NCBI GenBank assembly: GCA_019670725.1
Contig: AP024629.1
Span: 992,001-1,056,000, forward strand
Direction of reading: 5' to 3'
Origin: Alphaproteobacteria bacterium SO-S41
GTDB lineage: Bacteria > Pseudomonadota > Alphaproteobacteria > Micropepsales > Micropepsaceae
Length of the DNA: 64,000 bases
In this document: positions 4,392-36,611 of the stretch, piece after piece
Layout of the letters: every line of letters starts with the position of its first letter
Position numbering within the stretch: the stretch's first letter is position 1
Notes under the pieces: model-generated
The model's database searches: none
What the model was told of the DNA's origin: nothing
Seen by the model: only the letters and a program-made list of their open reading frames with translations
Translations under genes and position numbers: made by a program

Positions 4392-5564
4392 ATGGGTGAA
4401 GCGTATATCGTCGCCATCGCGCGCACGGCCGGCGGCCGCAAGGGCGGTCGTCTGAAGGACTGGCATCCCGTCGATCTCGCCGCGGCGATCATCGACAATC
4501 TGGTCGAGCAGACCAAGGCCGACCCGGCCCTCATCGACGATGTCATCATGGGCTGCGTCAGCCAGGCCGGCGAGCAGGCGATGAACATCGCCCGCAATGC
4601 GGTGATGGCCTCCAAGCTGCCCGAAAGCGTTCCCGCCACTTCGGTCGACCGCCAGTGCGGTTCTTCGCAGCAGGCGCTCCACTTCGCGGCGCAGGCCGTG
4701 ATGTCCGGCACGATGGATTGCGTCATCGCCTCGGGCGTCGAGAGCATGACGCGCGTCCCCATGGGCCTCGCCATCACGCTGCCCGCCAAGAACGGCTTTG
4801 GCATCTACAAGAGCCCACGCCTTGAGGAGCGTTATCCCGGCATCATGTTCAGCCAGTTCGACGGCGCCGAGATGATCGCCAAGAAATACGACCTGACCAA
4901 GGATGTGCTCGACGAGTTCGGCTACAACTCGCACCGCAAGGGCAAGGAAGCGACAGAGTCCGGCGCGTTCGACGGCGAGATCCTGCCGCTCGAGATCGTC
5001 GATGCCGAGGGCAACAAGGTGCTCCACACCGTCGATGAGGGCATCCGCTTCAACGCCTCGCTCGATGCGATGAAGGGCGTGAAGCTGATCAAGGAAGACG
5101 GCCGCCTGACCGCCGCGACCTCCAGCCAGATCACCGACGGCGCTTCGGGTGTCATGGTCGTCAACGAGAAGGGCCTGAAGGCGCTCGGCGTGAAGCCGCT
5201 CGCGCGCATCCACCACATGACGGTGATCGGCGCCGATCCCATCATCATGCTGGAAGCGCCCATCCCCGCGACCCAGCGCGCGCTGCAGCGCGCCGGCATG
5301 AAGATCGACGACATCGATCTCTATGAAGTGAACGAGGCGTTCGCCTCCGTGCCGCTCGCCTGGCAGCAGACGCTGGGCGCCGACCCGGCGCGCCTCAACG
5401 TCAATGGCGGCGCGATCGCCCTCGGCCACCCGCTGGGCGGCTCGGGCACCAAGCTGATGTCGACCCTGGTCAACGCCCTCCACAAGCGCGGCAAGCGCTA
5501 CGGTCTCCAGACCATGTGCGAAGGCGGCGGTCTCGCGAACGTCACGATCGTCGAGCGGCTCTAG
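4392..5564 (+). CDS. Acetyl-CoA C-acyltransferase (thiolase)
   Basis: A 390-aa thiolase, the usual family length. It cleaves 3-ketoacyl-CoA with CoA (or condenses two acyl-CoAs) in the cytoplasm. The nucleophilic Cys89 is in DRQCGSSQQA, the catalytic His is in GGAIALGHPLGGSG, and the second Cys is in CEGGG near the C terminus. GGAGG at 4380-4384 supports the ATG. The gene stands alone with its own terminator, so the pathway is not given by context; fatty-acid, aromatic or sterol side-chain breakdown all fit, in keeping with the acyl-CoA ligases elsewhere in the window. Confidence 0.93.
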   Translation: MGEAYIVAIARTAGGRKGGRLKDWHPVDLAAAIIDNLVEQTKADPALIDDVIMGCVSQAGEQAMNIARNAVMASKLPESVPATSVDRQCGSSQQALHFAAQAVMSGTMDCVIASGVESMTRVPMGLAITLPAKNGFGIYKSPRLEERYPGIMFSQFDGAEMIAKKYDLTKDVLDEFGYNSHRKGKEATESGAFDGEILPLEIVDAEGNKVLHTVDEGIRFNASLDAMKGVKLIKEDGRLTAATSSQITDGASGVMVVNEKGLKALGVKPLARIHHMTVIGADPIIMLEAPIPATQRALQRAGMKIDDIDLYEVNEAFASVPLAWQQTLGADPARLNVNGGAIALGHPLGGSGTKLMSTLVNALHKRGKRYGLQTMCEGGGLANVTIVERL

Positions 5565-27204: not shown

Positions 27205-27284
27205 ACAGTCTTCGATGGCCTCGCGAGCGGTTGGCGCAAGCCGCCCGCGCGCCTAGATTGGCGAGAGAACAAGGAGACATATCC

Positions 27285-28229
27285 ATGGACCAGCGCCCCC
27301 TCGGCAAAACCGGCCTTAAAATCGCGCCCCTCGTGCTCGGCGGCAATGTCTTCGGCTGGACGTCGGACAAGGCGGCGTCCTTCGCCGTGCTCGATGCCTT
27401 CCTCGCGGCAGGCTTCAACGCCATCGACACGGCGGACGTCTATTCGCGCTGGATCCCCGGTCATGTCGGCGGCGAATCCGAAACCGTGATCGGCGAGTGG
27501 ATCAAGGCGCGCGGCAATCGCGACCAGATCGTGCTCATCACCAAGGTCGGCCAGGACATGGGCGAGGGCGGCAAGGGCCTCACCGCCAAGCATATCGCCG
27601 AAGGCGCCGAGGCGTCACTCAAGCGTCTGCAGACCGATCATATCGATCTCTATTTCTCGCATTTCCCCGATGCGGAGACGCCGATCGAGGAAACGCTGGA
27701 AGCGCATCAGCGTCTCGTCGATGCCGGCAAGGTCCGCGCGGTCGGCGGTTCGAACTACGATGCGCCGGGCCTCGCCGCGGCGCTGAAGGCGGGCGAGGGC
27801 GCAGGCCGCGCCCACTACGGCGTCATCCAGCCGCATTACAATCTTTATGAGCGCAAAAGCTATGAAGGGCCGCTGGAGGATCTCGCGGCGGCGGAGGGGC
27901 TTGGCGTCATCCCCTATTTCGCGCTGGCCAGCGGCTTCCTCACCGGCAAATACCGGTCCGAAGCGGATTTGAGCAAAAGCCCGCGCGGCGGCGGCATGAA
28001 GCGCTATCTCGGCGATCGCGGCCACGCGATTCTGACGGCGCTCGACACCGTCGCGGCGCGCCATCAGGCGACGCCGGCGCAGATCGCGCTCGCCTGGATG
28101 ATGACGCGGCCGAGCGTGACCGCGCCGATCGCCAGCGCCACCAGCGTCGATCAGCTCACCGACATCGCGAAGTCTGCCAGCGTGAAGCTGGCCGCCGACG
28201 ATATCGCCACGCTCGACGCGACGGCCTAG
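27285..28229 (+). CDS. Aldo/keto reductase
   Basis: A 314-aa TIM-barrel NADPH-dependent oxidoreductase. The catalytic tetrad is visible as Asp/Tyr in DTADVYSRW, Lys in ITKVGQDM and His in LYFSHFPD; the coenzyme phosphate-binding C-terminal region reads APIASATSVDQLTDI. The ATG at 27285 is preceded by AAGGAG, so the longer frame from 27231 is rejected. The substrate is an aldehyde or ketone, not predictable further. The stop overlaps that of the convergent gene in CTAG (28226-28229). Confidence 0.9.
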   Translation: MDQRPLGKTGLKIAPLVLGGNVFGWTSDKAASFAVLDAFLAAGFNAIDTADVYSRWIPGHVGGESETVIGEWIKARGNRDQIVLITKVGQDMGEGGKGLTAKHIAEGAEASLKRLQTDHIDLYFSHFPDAETPIEETLEAHQRLVDAGKVRAVGGSNYDAPGLAAALKAGEGAGRAHYGVIQPHYNLYERKSYEGPLEDLAAAEGLGVIPYFALASGFLTGKYRSEADLSKSPRGGGMKRYLGDRGHAILTALDTVAARHQATPAQIALAWMMTRPSVTAPIASATSVDQLTDIAKSASVKLAADDIATLDATA

Positions 28230-32930: not shown

Positions 32931-33440
32931 TCATCGGCCCGCCGCGAAGACCATGCAGGTCGTCGTGCCGTGGGCGAGAAGTCGCCCCTCGGCATCGCGG
33001 AGGAAACCCTCGGCGGTCGCCACCCGGCCGCCGGAATGGATGATGCGGCCCTCGACCGTGACCTTGCCGGTCGTCTCGGTCATGGCGCGGACGAAATTCG
33101 TCTTGAGCTCCAGCGTCGTGTAGCTGCGCCCGGCGGGCAGGGTGGAGTGCACCGCGCAGCCCATTGCGGTGTCGAGCAGCGTCGCGGCATAGCCGCCATG
33201 CACGGTGCCGAGCGTGTTGTAGAAGCTGGCGTCGGGATGCCCCTCGAACACGATGCGGCCGAATTCGACCTCGACGGGCCGCACGGGGATGATGCCCGCC
33301 ATCGGCGGCATGGGCCGCTCGCCGTCACCGATGCTGCGCAGGAAATCGAGCCCGCTGAGGCTCACCACCTCGGCCGGCGGTACGGTCCCGGTCTCACGAG
33401 GCGGCAGCCCGATATCGATCGCCTTGTAAATCTCGCCCAC
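32931..33440 (-). CDS. PaaI-family hotdog thioesterase
   Basis: A 169-aa acyl/aryl-CoA thioesterase. GTVHGGYAATLLDTAMGCAV is the PaaI-type active-site block, followed by YTTLELKTNFVRAM and GRVATAEGFLRDAEGRLLAHGT. It releases CoA from aromatic or medium-chain acyl-CoAs. The start is GTG at 33440 with GGGG 6 bases upstream. The promoter (TTGACA, 18 bp, TTATCT) has its spacer occupied by a copy of the operator found ahead of the neighbouring marR, so it is very likely repressed by that regulator. Confidence 0.88.
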   Translation of the reverse strand: MGEIYKAIDIGLPPRETGTVPPAEVVSLSGLDFLRSIGDGERPMPPMAGIIPVRPVEVEFGRIVFEGHPDASFYNTLGTVHGGYAATLLDTAMGCAVHSTLPAGRSYTTLELKTNFVRAMTETTGKVTVEGRIIHSGGRVATAEGFLRDAEGRLLAHGTTTCMVFAAGR

Positions 33441-33453
33441 GCTTGCCCCATAA

Positions 33454-33465
33454 GTGCATATGCAC
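33454..33465. promoter_or_regulatory. MarR operator candidate 2 (start region of thioesterase promoter)
   Basis: GTGCATATGCAC is a perfect 12-bp palindrome lying directly downstream of the -10 box, over the predicted transcript start. It shares the TGCA/GTGCA core with the other sites in this unit. Confidence 0.6.
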
Positions 33466-33495
33466 AGATAATGCGTGCAACTACACGAATGTCAA
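33466..33495 (-). promoter_or_regulatory. Thioesterase promoter with operator candidate 1 in its spacer
   Basis: On the minus strand TTGACA (33495-33490) and TTATCT (33471-33466) are separated by 18 bp (33489-33472). The + strand spacer TGCGTGCAACTACACGAA matches the palindrome ahead of marR at 14 of 18 positions. A repressor bound here would occlude both promoter elements. Confidence 0.7.
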
Positions 33496-33593
33496 CATCT
33501 CCCCCTGCGCTTGCGGGGGGAGACAGCCATGCTGATCGCGGAGCGAACGGCATGGCAGAGGGGGGCATGTGATCGCGTGAAGCGCCGGTGCGC

Positions 33594-34022
33594 CTAGACC
33601 GCCTCGCGCAGCGCCCGCAGTTTCTTGCGCGTGTCGGCCCAGGCGGGGGCGCCGAGCTTGTCGATCAGCCCATTTTGAGCGGCCCGCCACAGCGGCAGGG
33701 CCTCCGCCAGCACGCCATCGCCCTTGCGGGTCAGCGTCTTCCGGCGCGCCCGGCCGTCGGTCTCCGTCTTGATCAGGCCGTCCCGCTCCAGCAGGTCGAG
33801 ATTGCGCACCAGCGTCGTGCGGTCGATCCCCATGCGCTCCGCCAGATCGGTGGCGGAGAGGCCGGGATCGGCGCTGAGCGAGACCAACAGCGAGAATTGC
33901 GGCCCCTTCAGGCCAGAGGGCCTGAGCGCGTCCTCATAATGCTTGGTGATCGCGCGCGCGGTCAGGCGCACGCGGAACATCACGCATTCGCGCCCGACAT
34001 CCTCAGCCGTGATTTTCGCCAT
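33594..34022 (-). CDS. MarR-family transcriptional regulator
   Basis: A 142-aa winged-helix regulator: helices LRPSGLKGPQFSLLVSL and LSATDLAERMGIDRTTLVRNLDLL, wing RDGLIKTETDGRARRKTLTRKG, and the dimerisation helices at both ends. Cys14 in GRECVMF could sense oxidants, but MarR proteins near CoA thioesterases often sense aromatic acids or their CoA esters. A perfect palindrome overlaps its own promoter, and related sites cover the thioesterase promoter downstream, so autorepression plus control of that gene is likely. Confidence 0.9.
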   Translation of the reverse strand: MAKITAEDVGRECVMFRVRLTARAITKHYEDALRPSGLKGPQFSLLVSLSADPGLSATDLAERMGIDRTTLVRNLDLLERDGLIKTETDGRARRKTLTRKGDGVLAEALPLWRAAQNGLIDKLGAPAWADTRKKLRALREAV

Positions 34023-34034
34023 ATCCCGAACTCA

Positions 34035-34080
34035 TGCGTGCAGATGCACGCAATCTAGGTGCGTGCGCCGCGGCCCGCAA
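34035..34080 (-). promoter_or_regulatory. marR promoter and autoregulatory palindrome
   Basis: On the minus strand TTGCGG (34080-34075), 17-bp spacer, TAGATT (34057-34052), then the palindrome TGCGTGCA GA TGCACGCA (34035-34052), 18 bp with perfect 8-bp arms, ending 12 bases before the ATG. A third half-site TGCGTGC is at 34060-34066. Its placement over the transcript start fits autorepression. Confidence 0.72.
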
Positions 34081-34088
34081 GGCGCGGC

Positions 34089-34451
34089 CTACACGACCTC
34101 GGCGTCGGCCCCGGCATTGCGCAGCAATTCCACCGCCTGTTCGGCCGACGCCCGCGCGCGGCCGGAGAGGACGATGCCGGGTGCGCCGTCCGCCATATCC
34201 TTGGTCTCCTTGAGGCCAAGCCCCGTCAGCTCCCGCAGCGCCTTGATGACGGCGATCTTGTTACGGCCCGCGCTGCGGAGGTTGACCTGATACGGACCGC
34301 TCTCTGCGGCCACCGGCGCCCGTGTTGCCAGACGCGGGGCAGCAAGCGGGGCGGACGGTGCGCTGCCGCCCCGCGCACCAAAGCCGCGACCGATGATCAG
34401 ACCGATGATGAAGACGCCCGCGATGATCGCGAGCGTCTGCCAGCCGAGCAC
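34089..34451 (-). CDS. Membrane-anchored protein with ribosomal bL12 C-terminal-like domain
   Basis: A 120-aa protein. The N-terminal helix (residues 6-23) is followed by an Ala/Pro linker and a C-terminal domain (about 52-120) matching the bL12 CTD: NKIAVIKALRELTGLGLKE then TKDMADGAPG and AEQAVELLRNAGADAEV. It is not a ribosomal protein because of the membrane helix and the missing N-terminal dimerisation domain. It starts GTG 5 bases after the LLM oxidoreductase stop, with GGAG overlapping the stop. Its role is unknown; family members occur widely as orphan bL12-like proteins. Confidence 0.83.
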   Translation of the reverse strand: MLGWQTLAIIAGVFIIGLIIGRGFGARGGSAPSAPLAAPRLATRAPVAAESGPYQVNLRSAGRNKIAVIKALRELTGLGLKETKDMADGAPGIVLSGRARASAEQAVELLRNAGADAEVV

Positions 34452-34456
34452 TGCGC

Positions 34457-35629
34457 CTACTCCGCCGCGTCCTTCTTCTTCGCGGCTTCGTCGACGGCGT
34501 GCTTCTGCAGCGTCTGCATGACCGCGTTCATCGCCGCGCCCATGTATTTCTCGCGCCCACCCTTGACCTCTTCATAGCTGTCGATGCGCGCGGAGTTGGT
34601 GTTGTTGATCACCGGCGAAACGTGCCGCGCCCACAGCTCGTAGGACTTCTTGGTCTTGTCCCACTGCGCCCAGTTATGGGCGAGCTGCAGGAAGGCGCCG
34701 AATTCGCCCTGCTTGGCCTGCAGGCGGCGGATCTGGGCGATCGCCTCGTCGGGCGTCCCGACCACGATCGTGCCTTCGCGGATGCCCCGCTCCAGCGGGT
34801 CCTCGTTGGGATCCTGGTTGACGTTCAGGGGCGACAGATTAGCGAAATAGGTCGCCCATTTGTCGTAGCCGTAACGCACGTTGGCCATCGCCTCTTCCTT
34901 GGTCTCGGCGATATGCACCGGACCGACAAGGCGCAGCTTTTCGGGGTCCATGGCGCGGCCGTTCTCGGCGGCGACCTCGTTGGCGATTTTCCAGTTGATG
35001 CCGAGCGCGTCATAGCCGCCGGCCTGGGTCGCGGCGACGCACAGCATGCCGAAGCCATGCTTGCCCGCCAGCTTGCCGCCCGAGGGGGTCACCGACGACG
35101 CCACCGAAATTTCGGGATGCGGCCAGGTATAGGGCTTCAGCTGGCAGATCGCGTTGTCGAGCGTGAACCAGTCGGTCTTCTTCGTGACCCGCTCGCCGTT
35201 GAACAGGCGCACGATCACCTCGATCGCCTCGACCATGCGGTCGCGCTGGACCGATGGGTCGATGCCGAGCTGGAACGCGTCGGAGGGCAGCAGGCCCGGG
35301 CCGACGCCGAACATCACGCGGCCGCGCGTCTGGTGGTCGAGCTGGATGATGCGGTTCGCGATGGTCAGCGGCGAGTGGTAGGGCAGCGAGACCACGCCCG
35401 TGCCGAACTTGATGCGCTTGGTGCGCTCGGCGGCGGCGGCGATGAAGACTTCGGGGCTCGGGATGATCTCGAAGCCCGCCGAATGATGCTCGCCGACCCA
35501 GGCCTCGTCGTAACCGAGGCGATCGAGATGCTCCATCAGCTCCAGGTCGCGATGGATGGCGAGCGTGGGGTCCTCGTCCAGCGGGTGGAACGGCGCGAGG
35601 AAAATACCGTTGCGCAGCTTGATCGTCAT
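34457..35629 (-). CDS. LLM-class flavin-dependent oxidoreductase (limonene monooxygenase-like)
   Basis: A 390-aa luciferase-like monooxygenase beginning KLRNGIFLAPFHPLDEDP. Segments GYDEAWVGEHHSAG, RIKFGTGVVSLPYHSP and GRVMFGVGPGLLPSDA mark the class, and the closest named relatives are limonene 1,2-monooxygenase-like proteins. It would oxidise a small organic molecule using FMNH2 and oxygen. The start at 35629 has GGGAGA upstream; the longer frame to 35830 is not coding. It is coupled to the bL12-like membrane protein gene. Confidence 0.88.
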   Translation of the reverse strand: MTIKLRNGIFLAPFHPLDEDPTLAIHRDLELMEHLDRLGYDEAWVGEHHSAGFEIIPSPEVFIAAAAERTKRIKFGTGVVSLPYHSPLTIANRIIQLDHQTRGRVMFGVGPGLLPSDAFQLGIDPSVQRDRMVEAIEVIVRLFNGERVTKKTDWFTLDNAICQLKPYTWPHPEISVASSVTPSGGKLAGKHGFGMLCVAATQAGGYDALGINWKIANEVAAENGRAMDPEKLRLVGPVHIAETKEEAMANVRYGYDKWATYFANLSPLNVNQDPNEDPLERGIREGTIVVGTPDEAIAQIRRLQAKQGEFGAFLQLAHNWAQWDKTKKSYELWARHVSPVINNTNSARIDSYEEVKGGREKYMGAAMNAVMQTLQKHAVDEAAKKKDAAE

Positions 35630-35744
35630 GGTGGTCTCCCGGCCGGCCGGCCGACTGACGCGGCCTTTGTTGGATGTCGATGCCGGGATTGGCGCACTGG
35701 TTGCGGTCCGGTGCAAGCCTAACCGTGCGTAAGCCCCGGCGCCG

Positions 35745-36611
35745 TCAGGCGGCCCGGCGTGCGCGCAGATGGAAGACGAGAGCGACGAGCAGCGCGGGGA
35801 TAGCGAGGAACGCGCCCAGGCCCACGCCAAGGGTGACGAAATCGATGCCCGGATCCGGCTGCTCCCAGGCGCGCGCGACGGGCGGCTCGGCCTGCGAGAT
35901 CGCCATGGCCGCGAGCGCGGCGCCGATGGCGGCGACGATCAGCGCGATATTGCGCGCCTTGCGCGGATTGCGCCGGGCGGCCTGGCCGGGAACCATGAGC
36001 GCCCGGGCGATCGGCCCATACGCGATCGGCTTGTTGTAGTGGGCCAGCGCCGCTTTTGCTTTCTGCTCCGCCCCGGCTTCGACGGGAAAGCGCACGATGA
36101 AGGGGGTCGGGGCGCCGCGCGGCTTGATGATCTTGAAATAGAACTCCAGCATGACGGGCGTGCCCGGCATGTAGCGCGTGCCGAGCATGATATCGCGATC
36201 CAGCTCGTGATAGGCCTCGCCGATCCGCATCGCCTGCTGCGATACCACCACCTCGACCGGCGCGCCGATCTCCGGTGGAATGGCCAGCACGTTCTCGCCC
36301 CACTGGCGGTCCAGCCCGGCCTGACGCTCGGCGTCCGCGCGCACGAATGCGGCCCAGGTCGGCGGATCGATCCACCAGCGCGCCAGTTCCTGGGTGCCGC
36401 TCTCCAGCAGCTCGAAGCGTCTGACCGCCCACATCAGTTGATAGGCGGCGATGAAAGATCCCGCAGCGATCGCCAGGCTGACCGTGGCCAACGCGATATA
36501 GGGTTTGGATCCGGTGCCGTGCTCGGGCAGGAGAAGCGCCGCCAGCCCGATCAAGACACCGGCGACGCCGACGGCGGTCCAGAGGTTGCGCCAGAACCGC
36601 CACGTCCGCAT
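35745..36611 (-). CDS. Hypothetical membrane protein
   Basis: A 288-aa protein with two N-terminal helices (about 13-29 and 38-60) and two C-terminal helices (about 222-240 and 256-283) flanking a soluble middle region that includes ELDRDIMLGTRYMPGTPVMLEFYFKI. I do not recognise the family. It begins 6 bases after the stop of the acyl-CoA ligase gene, so it is co-transcribed with it and may serve acid uptake or membrane sensing, but no motif supports a specific role. Confidence 0.75.
   Translation of the reverse strand: MRTWRFWRNLWTAVGVAGVLIGLAALLLPEHGTGSKPYIALATVSLAIAAGSFIAAYQLMWAVRRFELLESGTQELARWWIDPPTWAAFVRADAERQAGLDRQWGENVLAIPPEIGAPVEVVVSQQAMRIGEAYHELDRDIMLGTRYMPGTPVMLEFYFKIIKPRGAPTPFIVRFPVEAGAEQKAKAALAHYNKPIAYGPIARALMVPGQAARRNPRKARNIALIVAAIGAALAAMAISQAEPPVARAWEQPDPGIDFVTLGVGLGAFLAIPALLVALVFHLRARRAA

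Follow-up and report, generated by a model that had tools for sequence, protein, structure and literature searches.

The window (the whole 64-kb stretch of DNA analyzed here) encodes a MarR-family regulator, and a gene for a hotdog-fold thioesterase (TE) sits 153 bp downstream of marR on the same (−) strand. Similar palindromes lie ahead of the two genes. Which promoters does this regulator control, through which of these sites, and in response to what signal? The features of the unit are as follows.

33594–34022, − strand: marR, encoding a MarR-family regulator of the MosR clade (ATG start, 142 amino acids)
32931–33440, − strand: TE, encoding the hotdog-fold thioesterase, predicted target of MarR (GTG start, 169 amino acids)
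34052–34080, − strand: predicted marR promoter, TTGCGG-17-TAGATT (7 of 12 consensus positions; absent from the stricter scan)
34038–34049, − strand: predicted marR operator core, GTGCATCTGCAC (exact sequence, inside an 18-bp palindrome at 34035–34052)
33468–33495, − strand: predicted TE promoter, TTGACA-16-CATTAT (10 of 12 consensus positions, promoter scan)
33454–33465, − strand: predicted TE operator O1, the perfect palindrome GTGCATATGCAC, 2 bp past the predicted −10
33475–33486, − strand: predicted TE operator O2, the weaker copy GTGTAGTTGCAC, within the −35/−10 spacer and fitting GTGYANNTRCAC

Operators and promoters of the marR–TE unit

The palindrome that the original prediction had described ahead of marR, TGCGTGCA-GA-TGCACGCA, is exact at 34035–34052, 12 nt from the marR ATG, and the perfect 12-bp palindrome said to follow the −10 of TE is likewise present (GTGCATATGCAC, 33465–33454, − strand). 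The reported match of the TE spacer to the marR site, at 14 of 18 positions, is correct provided that each is read in the orientation of its gene. This 18-bp comparison is weak by itself: the query TGCGTGCANNTGCACGCA, with up to three mismatches, was found at two places versus 0.70 expected, a number equaled by 17 of 100 shuffles. It is the 12-bp core that gives the strong signal. The marR core, O1 and O2 all conform to GTGYANNTRCAC, i.e., GTGYA-NN-TRCAC, and the core GTGCATCTGCAC also precedes marR in two other genomes of the genus (G002 and G004).

The spacer element had been regarded as the main TE operator. In this respect the prediction has to be revised, because the palindrome that follows the −10 is the closer copy of the marR core (11 of 12 positions alike, versus 9 of 12 for the spacer copy GTGTAGTTGCAC). 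By eye, a palindrome seems to lie in the spacer of the marR promoters of two relatives (L025 and L026), as would be expected if the spacer element alone were the TE operator and the post-−10 palindrome a product of chance. Such an arrangement is nevertheless very improbable, given the closer similarity of the latter, its occurrence at a single place in the genome (GTGCATCTGCAC occurs at two), and the position of the site after the −10 in other promoters of the genus.

The TE promoter also required partial correction. The elements originally proposed, TTGACA (33495–33490) and TTATCT separated by 18 nt, are present, but TTATCT is doubtful as a −10, with 2 of 6 consensus positions. The promoter scan prefers CATTAT (33473–33468) with a 16-nt spacer, and the weaker site O2 falls wholly within this shorter spacer too.

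The distance between −10 and operator was compared in nine promoters from three genomes, comprising three of marR, three of a first thiolase gene, two of a second thiolase gene (both thiolases are described below) and that of TE, and a −10 was sought at gaps of 0–6 bp from the operator. A 2-bp gap was the best or equal-best in six of the nine, i.e., TE, marR of the window's own genome (G000) and of G002, the first thiolase of G002 and G004, and the second thiolase of G002. In marR of G004 the gap is 4 bp; the promoters of the G000 thiolase and of the second thiolase of G004 showed no convincing −10 at any gap of 0–6 bp. An operator located ∼2 bp past the predicted −10 would cover the transcript start; for marR, the start over the palindrome is a prediction. 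The comparison agrees with the earlier proposal that MarR occludes its promoters, the sites being placed where a bound dimer would be predicted to block RNA polymerase.

TE alone has another matching site, located 21 bp upstream of the first; none was observed in the eight other promoters. The distance between O1 and O2 corresponds to two helical turns, such that two dimers could share one face of the DNA. Occupancy by both would shut the TE promoter most tightly, and we infer that the two sites cooperate there.

In the window, GTGYANNTRCAC has three exact matches versus 0.06 expected, and none of 100 shuffles reached three, but these rarity figures alone overstate the case, since the degenerate pattern was drawn up after the sites were known and derives from the sites themselves; independent support is provided by other genomes. 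With one mismatch allowed, the four matches in the window (2.80 expected) are unremarkable. Within the 4.44-Mb genome the pattern occurs at six places, three of them inside the 596-bp marR–TE unit, and the reversed control pattern occurs at seven, so that placement rather than number is telling at the genome scale. Among the remaining three places, two are in coding frames (L084 and L077) and one (L089) is at a thiolase promoter. With one mismatch, GTGCATMTGCAC matches at 28 places in the genome. Of the contexts of the 24 places with loci, all but the last four were inspected; other than the sites at marR, TE and the thiolase, they seemed by eye to be coding, and these matches were rejected.

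The thiolase sites and their distribution in the genus

The site at L089 (GTGTATCTGCAC) is followed after 30 bp by an acetyl-CoA acetyltransferase (thiolase) gene in G000, whose product scored 399 bits with TIGR01930 (cut-off 240.55). The neighboring gene products resemble an acyl-CoA dehydrogenase, a carboxyltransferase, an enoyl-CoA hydratase and a biotin carboxylase (best matches, mostly below cut-off), and we take this neighborhood to be a branched-chain (liu-type) degradation cluster.

The genus was represented by five genomes, including G000. Orthologs of marR are present in three of these, namely G000, G002 (70%) and G004 (62%). In the two others, G001 and G003 (91% and 100% complete), the best match is a relative of 33–34% (E 8.0e-8 and 6.0e-9, respectively). 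Exact sites precede marR in all three genomes that have the gene. The first thiolase has an ortholog in all five genomes (86–89% in the four relatives), and an exact site is found 28–30 bp ahead of it in each of the three genomes with marR, as opposed to a best 12-mer with three mismatches within 200 bp in both genomes without it. The absence of the thiolase site from these marR-less near relatives renders the claim of MarR control open to a simple test.

The distribution of sites at the second acetyl-CoA acetyltransferase gene (4392–5561 in the window) was different. Its orthologs in G002 and G004 (87–91% class) have the operator, while no site was found at this gene in G000, G001 or G003, indicating that the regulon differs between near species. 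In total, three sites are found in G002 (marR and both thiolases) and five in G004 (marR, both thiolases, one before an MFS-like gene and one at an apparently coding position). None of the three sites in G001 or the five in G003 is at either thiolase. The fourth of the G004 sites, GTGTATTTACAC (L129, 597–608), precedes what looks by eye like an MFS-transporter gene, a possible further target; this gene gave no NCBIfam match at E 1e-20.

The product of TE scores as a hotdog-family protein (4HBT of Pfam, 56.1 bits versus a cut-off of 20.6; TIGR00369, 67.5 bits versus 36.6). Its best match in the four other genomes of the genus is 45%, and no close TE was seen there. Outside the genus, a distant alphaproteobacterium of another family (G091) encodes relatives of both MarR (46%) and TE (47%) in divergent orientation, and GTGYATATRCAC occurs once in its 6.2-Mb genome, between these two genes. 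This is the only one of 29 distinct TE homologs (30 matches, two of which represent one place, the window's own gene being excluded) that lies beside marR and has a site; the other 28 show at least two mismatches to both patterns, and TE homologs were abandoned as a guide to the operator. By these comparisons, TE appears to be linked to the window MarR in two lineages only.

The sites are short, and the genome encodes four other MarR-like matches (E ≤ 0.001), such that another regulator might bind the palindromes, their nearness to marR being incidental. This is quite unlikely, however, in view of the co-presence or co-absence of the thiolase site and marR in all five genomes of the genus, the position of the sole G091 site between marR and TE, and the occurrence of such palindromes ahead of marR relatives throughout the clade. 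On the features visible in the sequence (the sites, their rarity, placement and conservation, and their joint presence or absence with marR), the sites probably go with the window MarR and mark both autoregulation and control of TE. It is very likely, on the same grounds, that MarR represses marR, TE and the thiolase gene through shared sites. We propose that MarR acts as an autorepressor of the MosR clade, the dimer of which would bind the palindrome GTGYA-NN-TRCAC; bound over the transcript start, it would block initiation at marR, at TE and at the distant thiolase.

Relatives of the regulator, operator classes and candidate signals

The marR product carries a MarR winged-helix domain (MarR_2, 51.3 bits versus a Pfam cut-off of 27; a second Pfam family, MarR, 40 bits versus 24.6). 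In a PDB sequence search its top solved relative was MosR (E 3.9e-23). CouR, a regulator of aromatic-CoA genes, ranked next at a distant E 6.9e-8. A Foldseek comparison of the predicted model (pLDDT 89.4) likewise gave MosR (Rv1049 of Mycobacterium tuberculosis; 4fx0 and 4fx4) as the best match. MosR is thus nearest in both sequence and fold, and its recognition helix is nearly identical.

A scan of named genomes with the single protein found no marR relative, and one with a three-sequence alignment gave five loci, two of them in genomes already sampled. The set analyzed consisted of 44 marR-relative loci (L011–L040, L099–L109 and L112–L114, with L110 and L111 dropped as duplicates of L012 and L013), a subset of all matches found. 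In the 150 bp ahead of the marR relatives outside the genus, GTKNATATNMAC, a pattern derived from these same sequences, was exact in 19 of 41 leaders (shuffles average 0.02) and within one mismatch in 27 (shuffles average 0.56), leaving 14 without. The TE palindrome GTGCATATGCAC itself precedes three marR relatives (L019, L020 and L112). In L112, from a MAG labelled Gammaproteobacteria (upstream of 3001), both GTGCATATGCAC and GTGTATATACAC lie between the marR relative and a divergent gene that, by eye, resembles one for an RND-type exporter.

The type of palindrome was found to vary with the residue at the position of Arg73. GTG-type palindromes were observed at 12 loci with Arg, GTT-type palindromes at 16 loci with Ala and one with Gly, and GAG-type palindromes at seven loci with Lys; at eight further Arg loci the palindrome could not be classed. 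The classes were defined after the residues had been seen, and two changes of operator class suffice on a tree inferred with the recognition helix left out, so that the covariation with residue 73 rests on two events. Operator classes tied to this residue could serve to predict sites for many unstudied relatives.

As to the signal, MosR is reported to sense oxidation through a Cys10–Cys12 bond (PMC5823404). The window protein has a single cysteine, Cys13, which is kept in all nine sequences of the clade alignment. The Cys-x-Cys pair found at the start of helix 1 in MosR is missing, the window protein reading Cys13-Val-Met15 and its two genus orthologs CAM, with Met in place of the second redox Cys. 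Judged from its sequence, the window MarR belongs to the MosR clade yet lacks the defining redox pair of MosR, which precludes an intrachain bond of the MosR type. The reported MosR target, moreover, is a secreted oxidoreductase rather than a thioesterase or thiolase (PMC5823404).

The predicted targets of the window MarR are acyl-CoA enzymes, from which the effector is tentatively taken to be a metabolite of the acyl-CoA type; the case for it falls somewhat short of even. MarR would be released by a metabolite arising in acyl-CoA turnover, an acyl- or 3-ketoacyl-CoA being the most likely candidate, and thiolysis and thioester hydrolysis would rise. The main rival to this signal is oxidation of the single Cys13, upon which the same repressor would leave the same sites. 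That the invariant Cys13 aligns with the first of the two redox cysteines in MosR, an oxidation sensor and the nearest solved relative, makes this conceivable, but Met at the second position, the lack of any other Cys in the window protein, and targets that are predicted acyl-CoA enzymes render it rather unlikely.

An aromatic acid had originally been suggested as the effector, alternatively a CoA ester. The latter is possible, but no support was found for the former: the other predicted targets are acetyl-CoA acetyltransferases, and the nearest solved relative is MosR. Many MarR relatives bind aromatic ligands, and CouR (5cyv, p-coumaroyl-CoA) and Rv2887 (salicylate) are among the sequence or fold matches; the closest solved match of the TE product, 2pim, carries an annotation relating it to phenylacetic acid degradation. 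It is nonetheless improbable, and less likely than oxidation, that this repressor has an aromatic acid or an aromatic CoA ester as its ligand, because the predicted co-targets are not aromatic-pathway genes, models of 3-oxoadipyl-CoA thiolase score far under their cut-offs on the thiolases, and the equivalog model of the aromatic-responsive Saro_0803 (NF053777), although the best NCBIfam match of the marR product, gives only 45.2 bits versus a cut-off of 200.

Among known systems, Saro_0803 of Novosphingobium aromaticivorans is likewise a MarR repressor, and its site is reported to lie at the −10 of the target, but its inverted repeat is GCAATA------TATTGC and its ligand is resveratrol (PMC10046596). 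CouR is a MarR repressor with a ligand of the acyl-CoA type (PDB titles 5cyv and 6c2s). In Proteobacteria, degradation of fatty acids and branched-chain amino acids is controlled by LiuR, LiuQ, FadR, PsrA and FadP, which belong to the MerR, TetR and GntR families; no MarR regulator is named in the available part of that source (PMC5343134).

Autorepression by a MarR protein that also has a local target is a known kind of control, and the set of genes in the proposed regulon is apparently undescribed. No MarR protein with a thioesterase/thiolase regulon was found in the literature searched (titles and starts of abstracts, mostly without subscription papers), nor was the operator found there in a bacterial setting; its strings occur in three papers, which judging by title deal with human material. 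The proposal would assign a small regulon (marR, TE and thiolase) to a clade in which the closest protein of solved structure, MosR, is a redox regulator. A broader and more speculative reading, less likely than not to be right, is that a widespread proteobacterial MosR-like clade reads its operator via residue 73 (Arg with GTG, Ala or Gly with GTT, Lys with GAG), and that the window branch may have lost the redox Cys pair and become an acyl-CoA sensor controlling thiolases and a thioesterase, with TE or a second thiolase joining or leaving by species.

Neighboring repeats and gene order

The intergenic region between marR and TE contains one further element.

33498–33523, no strand assigned: GC-rich palindromic repeat, flanked by marR and the TE promoter, with a stable predicted hairpin

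This repeat is just upstream of the TE −35. It is found at 13 places in the genome within three mismatches, five of them exact, and several of the genome copies cluster near 3.20 Mb. Its interpretation as an ordinary terminator was rejected, as it is a dispersed repeat, has no U tract by eye and was not listed by the scan. A second dispersed palindrome, TGCCTGCC(T/G)(T/G)CGCAGGCA-like, was observed in G000 (L002–L005, L009 and L010) and accounts for 10 of the 22 places obtained with a loose operator pattern.

On the other side of marR (34089–35830), a luciferase-like monooxygenase neighbors a protein whose C-terminal domain is of the ribosomal L7/L12 type. G002 and G004 keep the order ligase, monooxygenase, L12-like protein and marR, but there an aldo-keto reductase gene is divergent to marR; in the window, a relative of the latter is located at 27231–28229, and TE follows marR instead.
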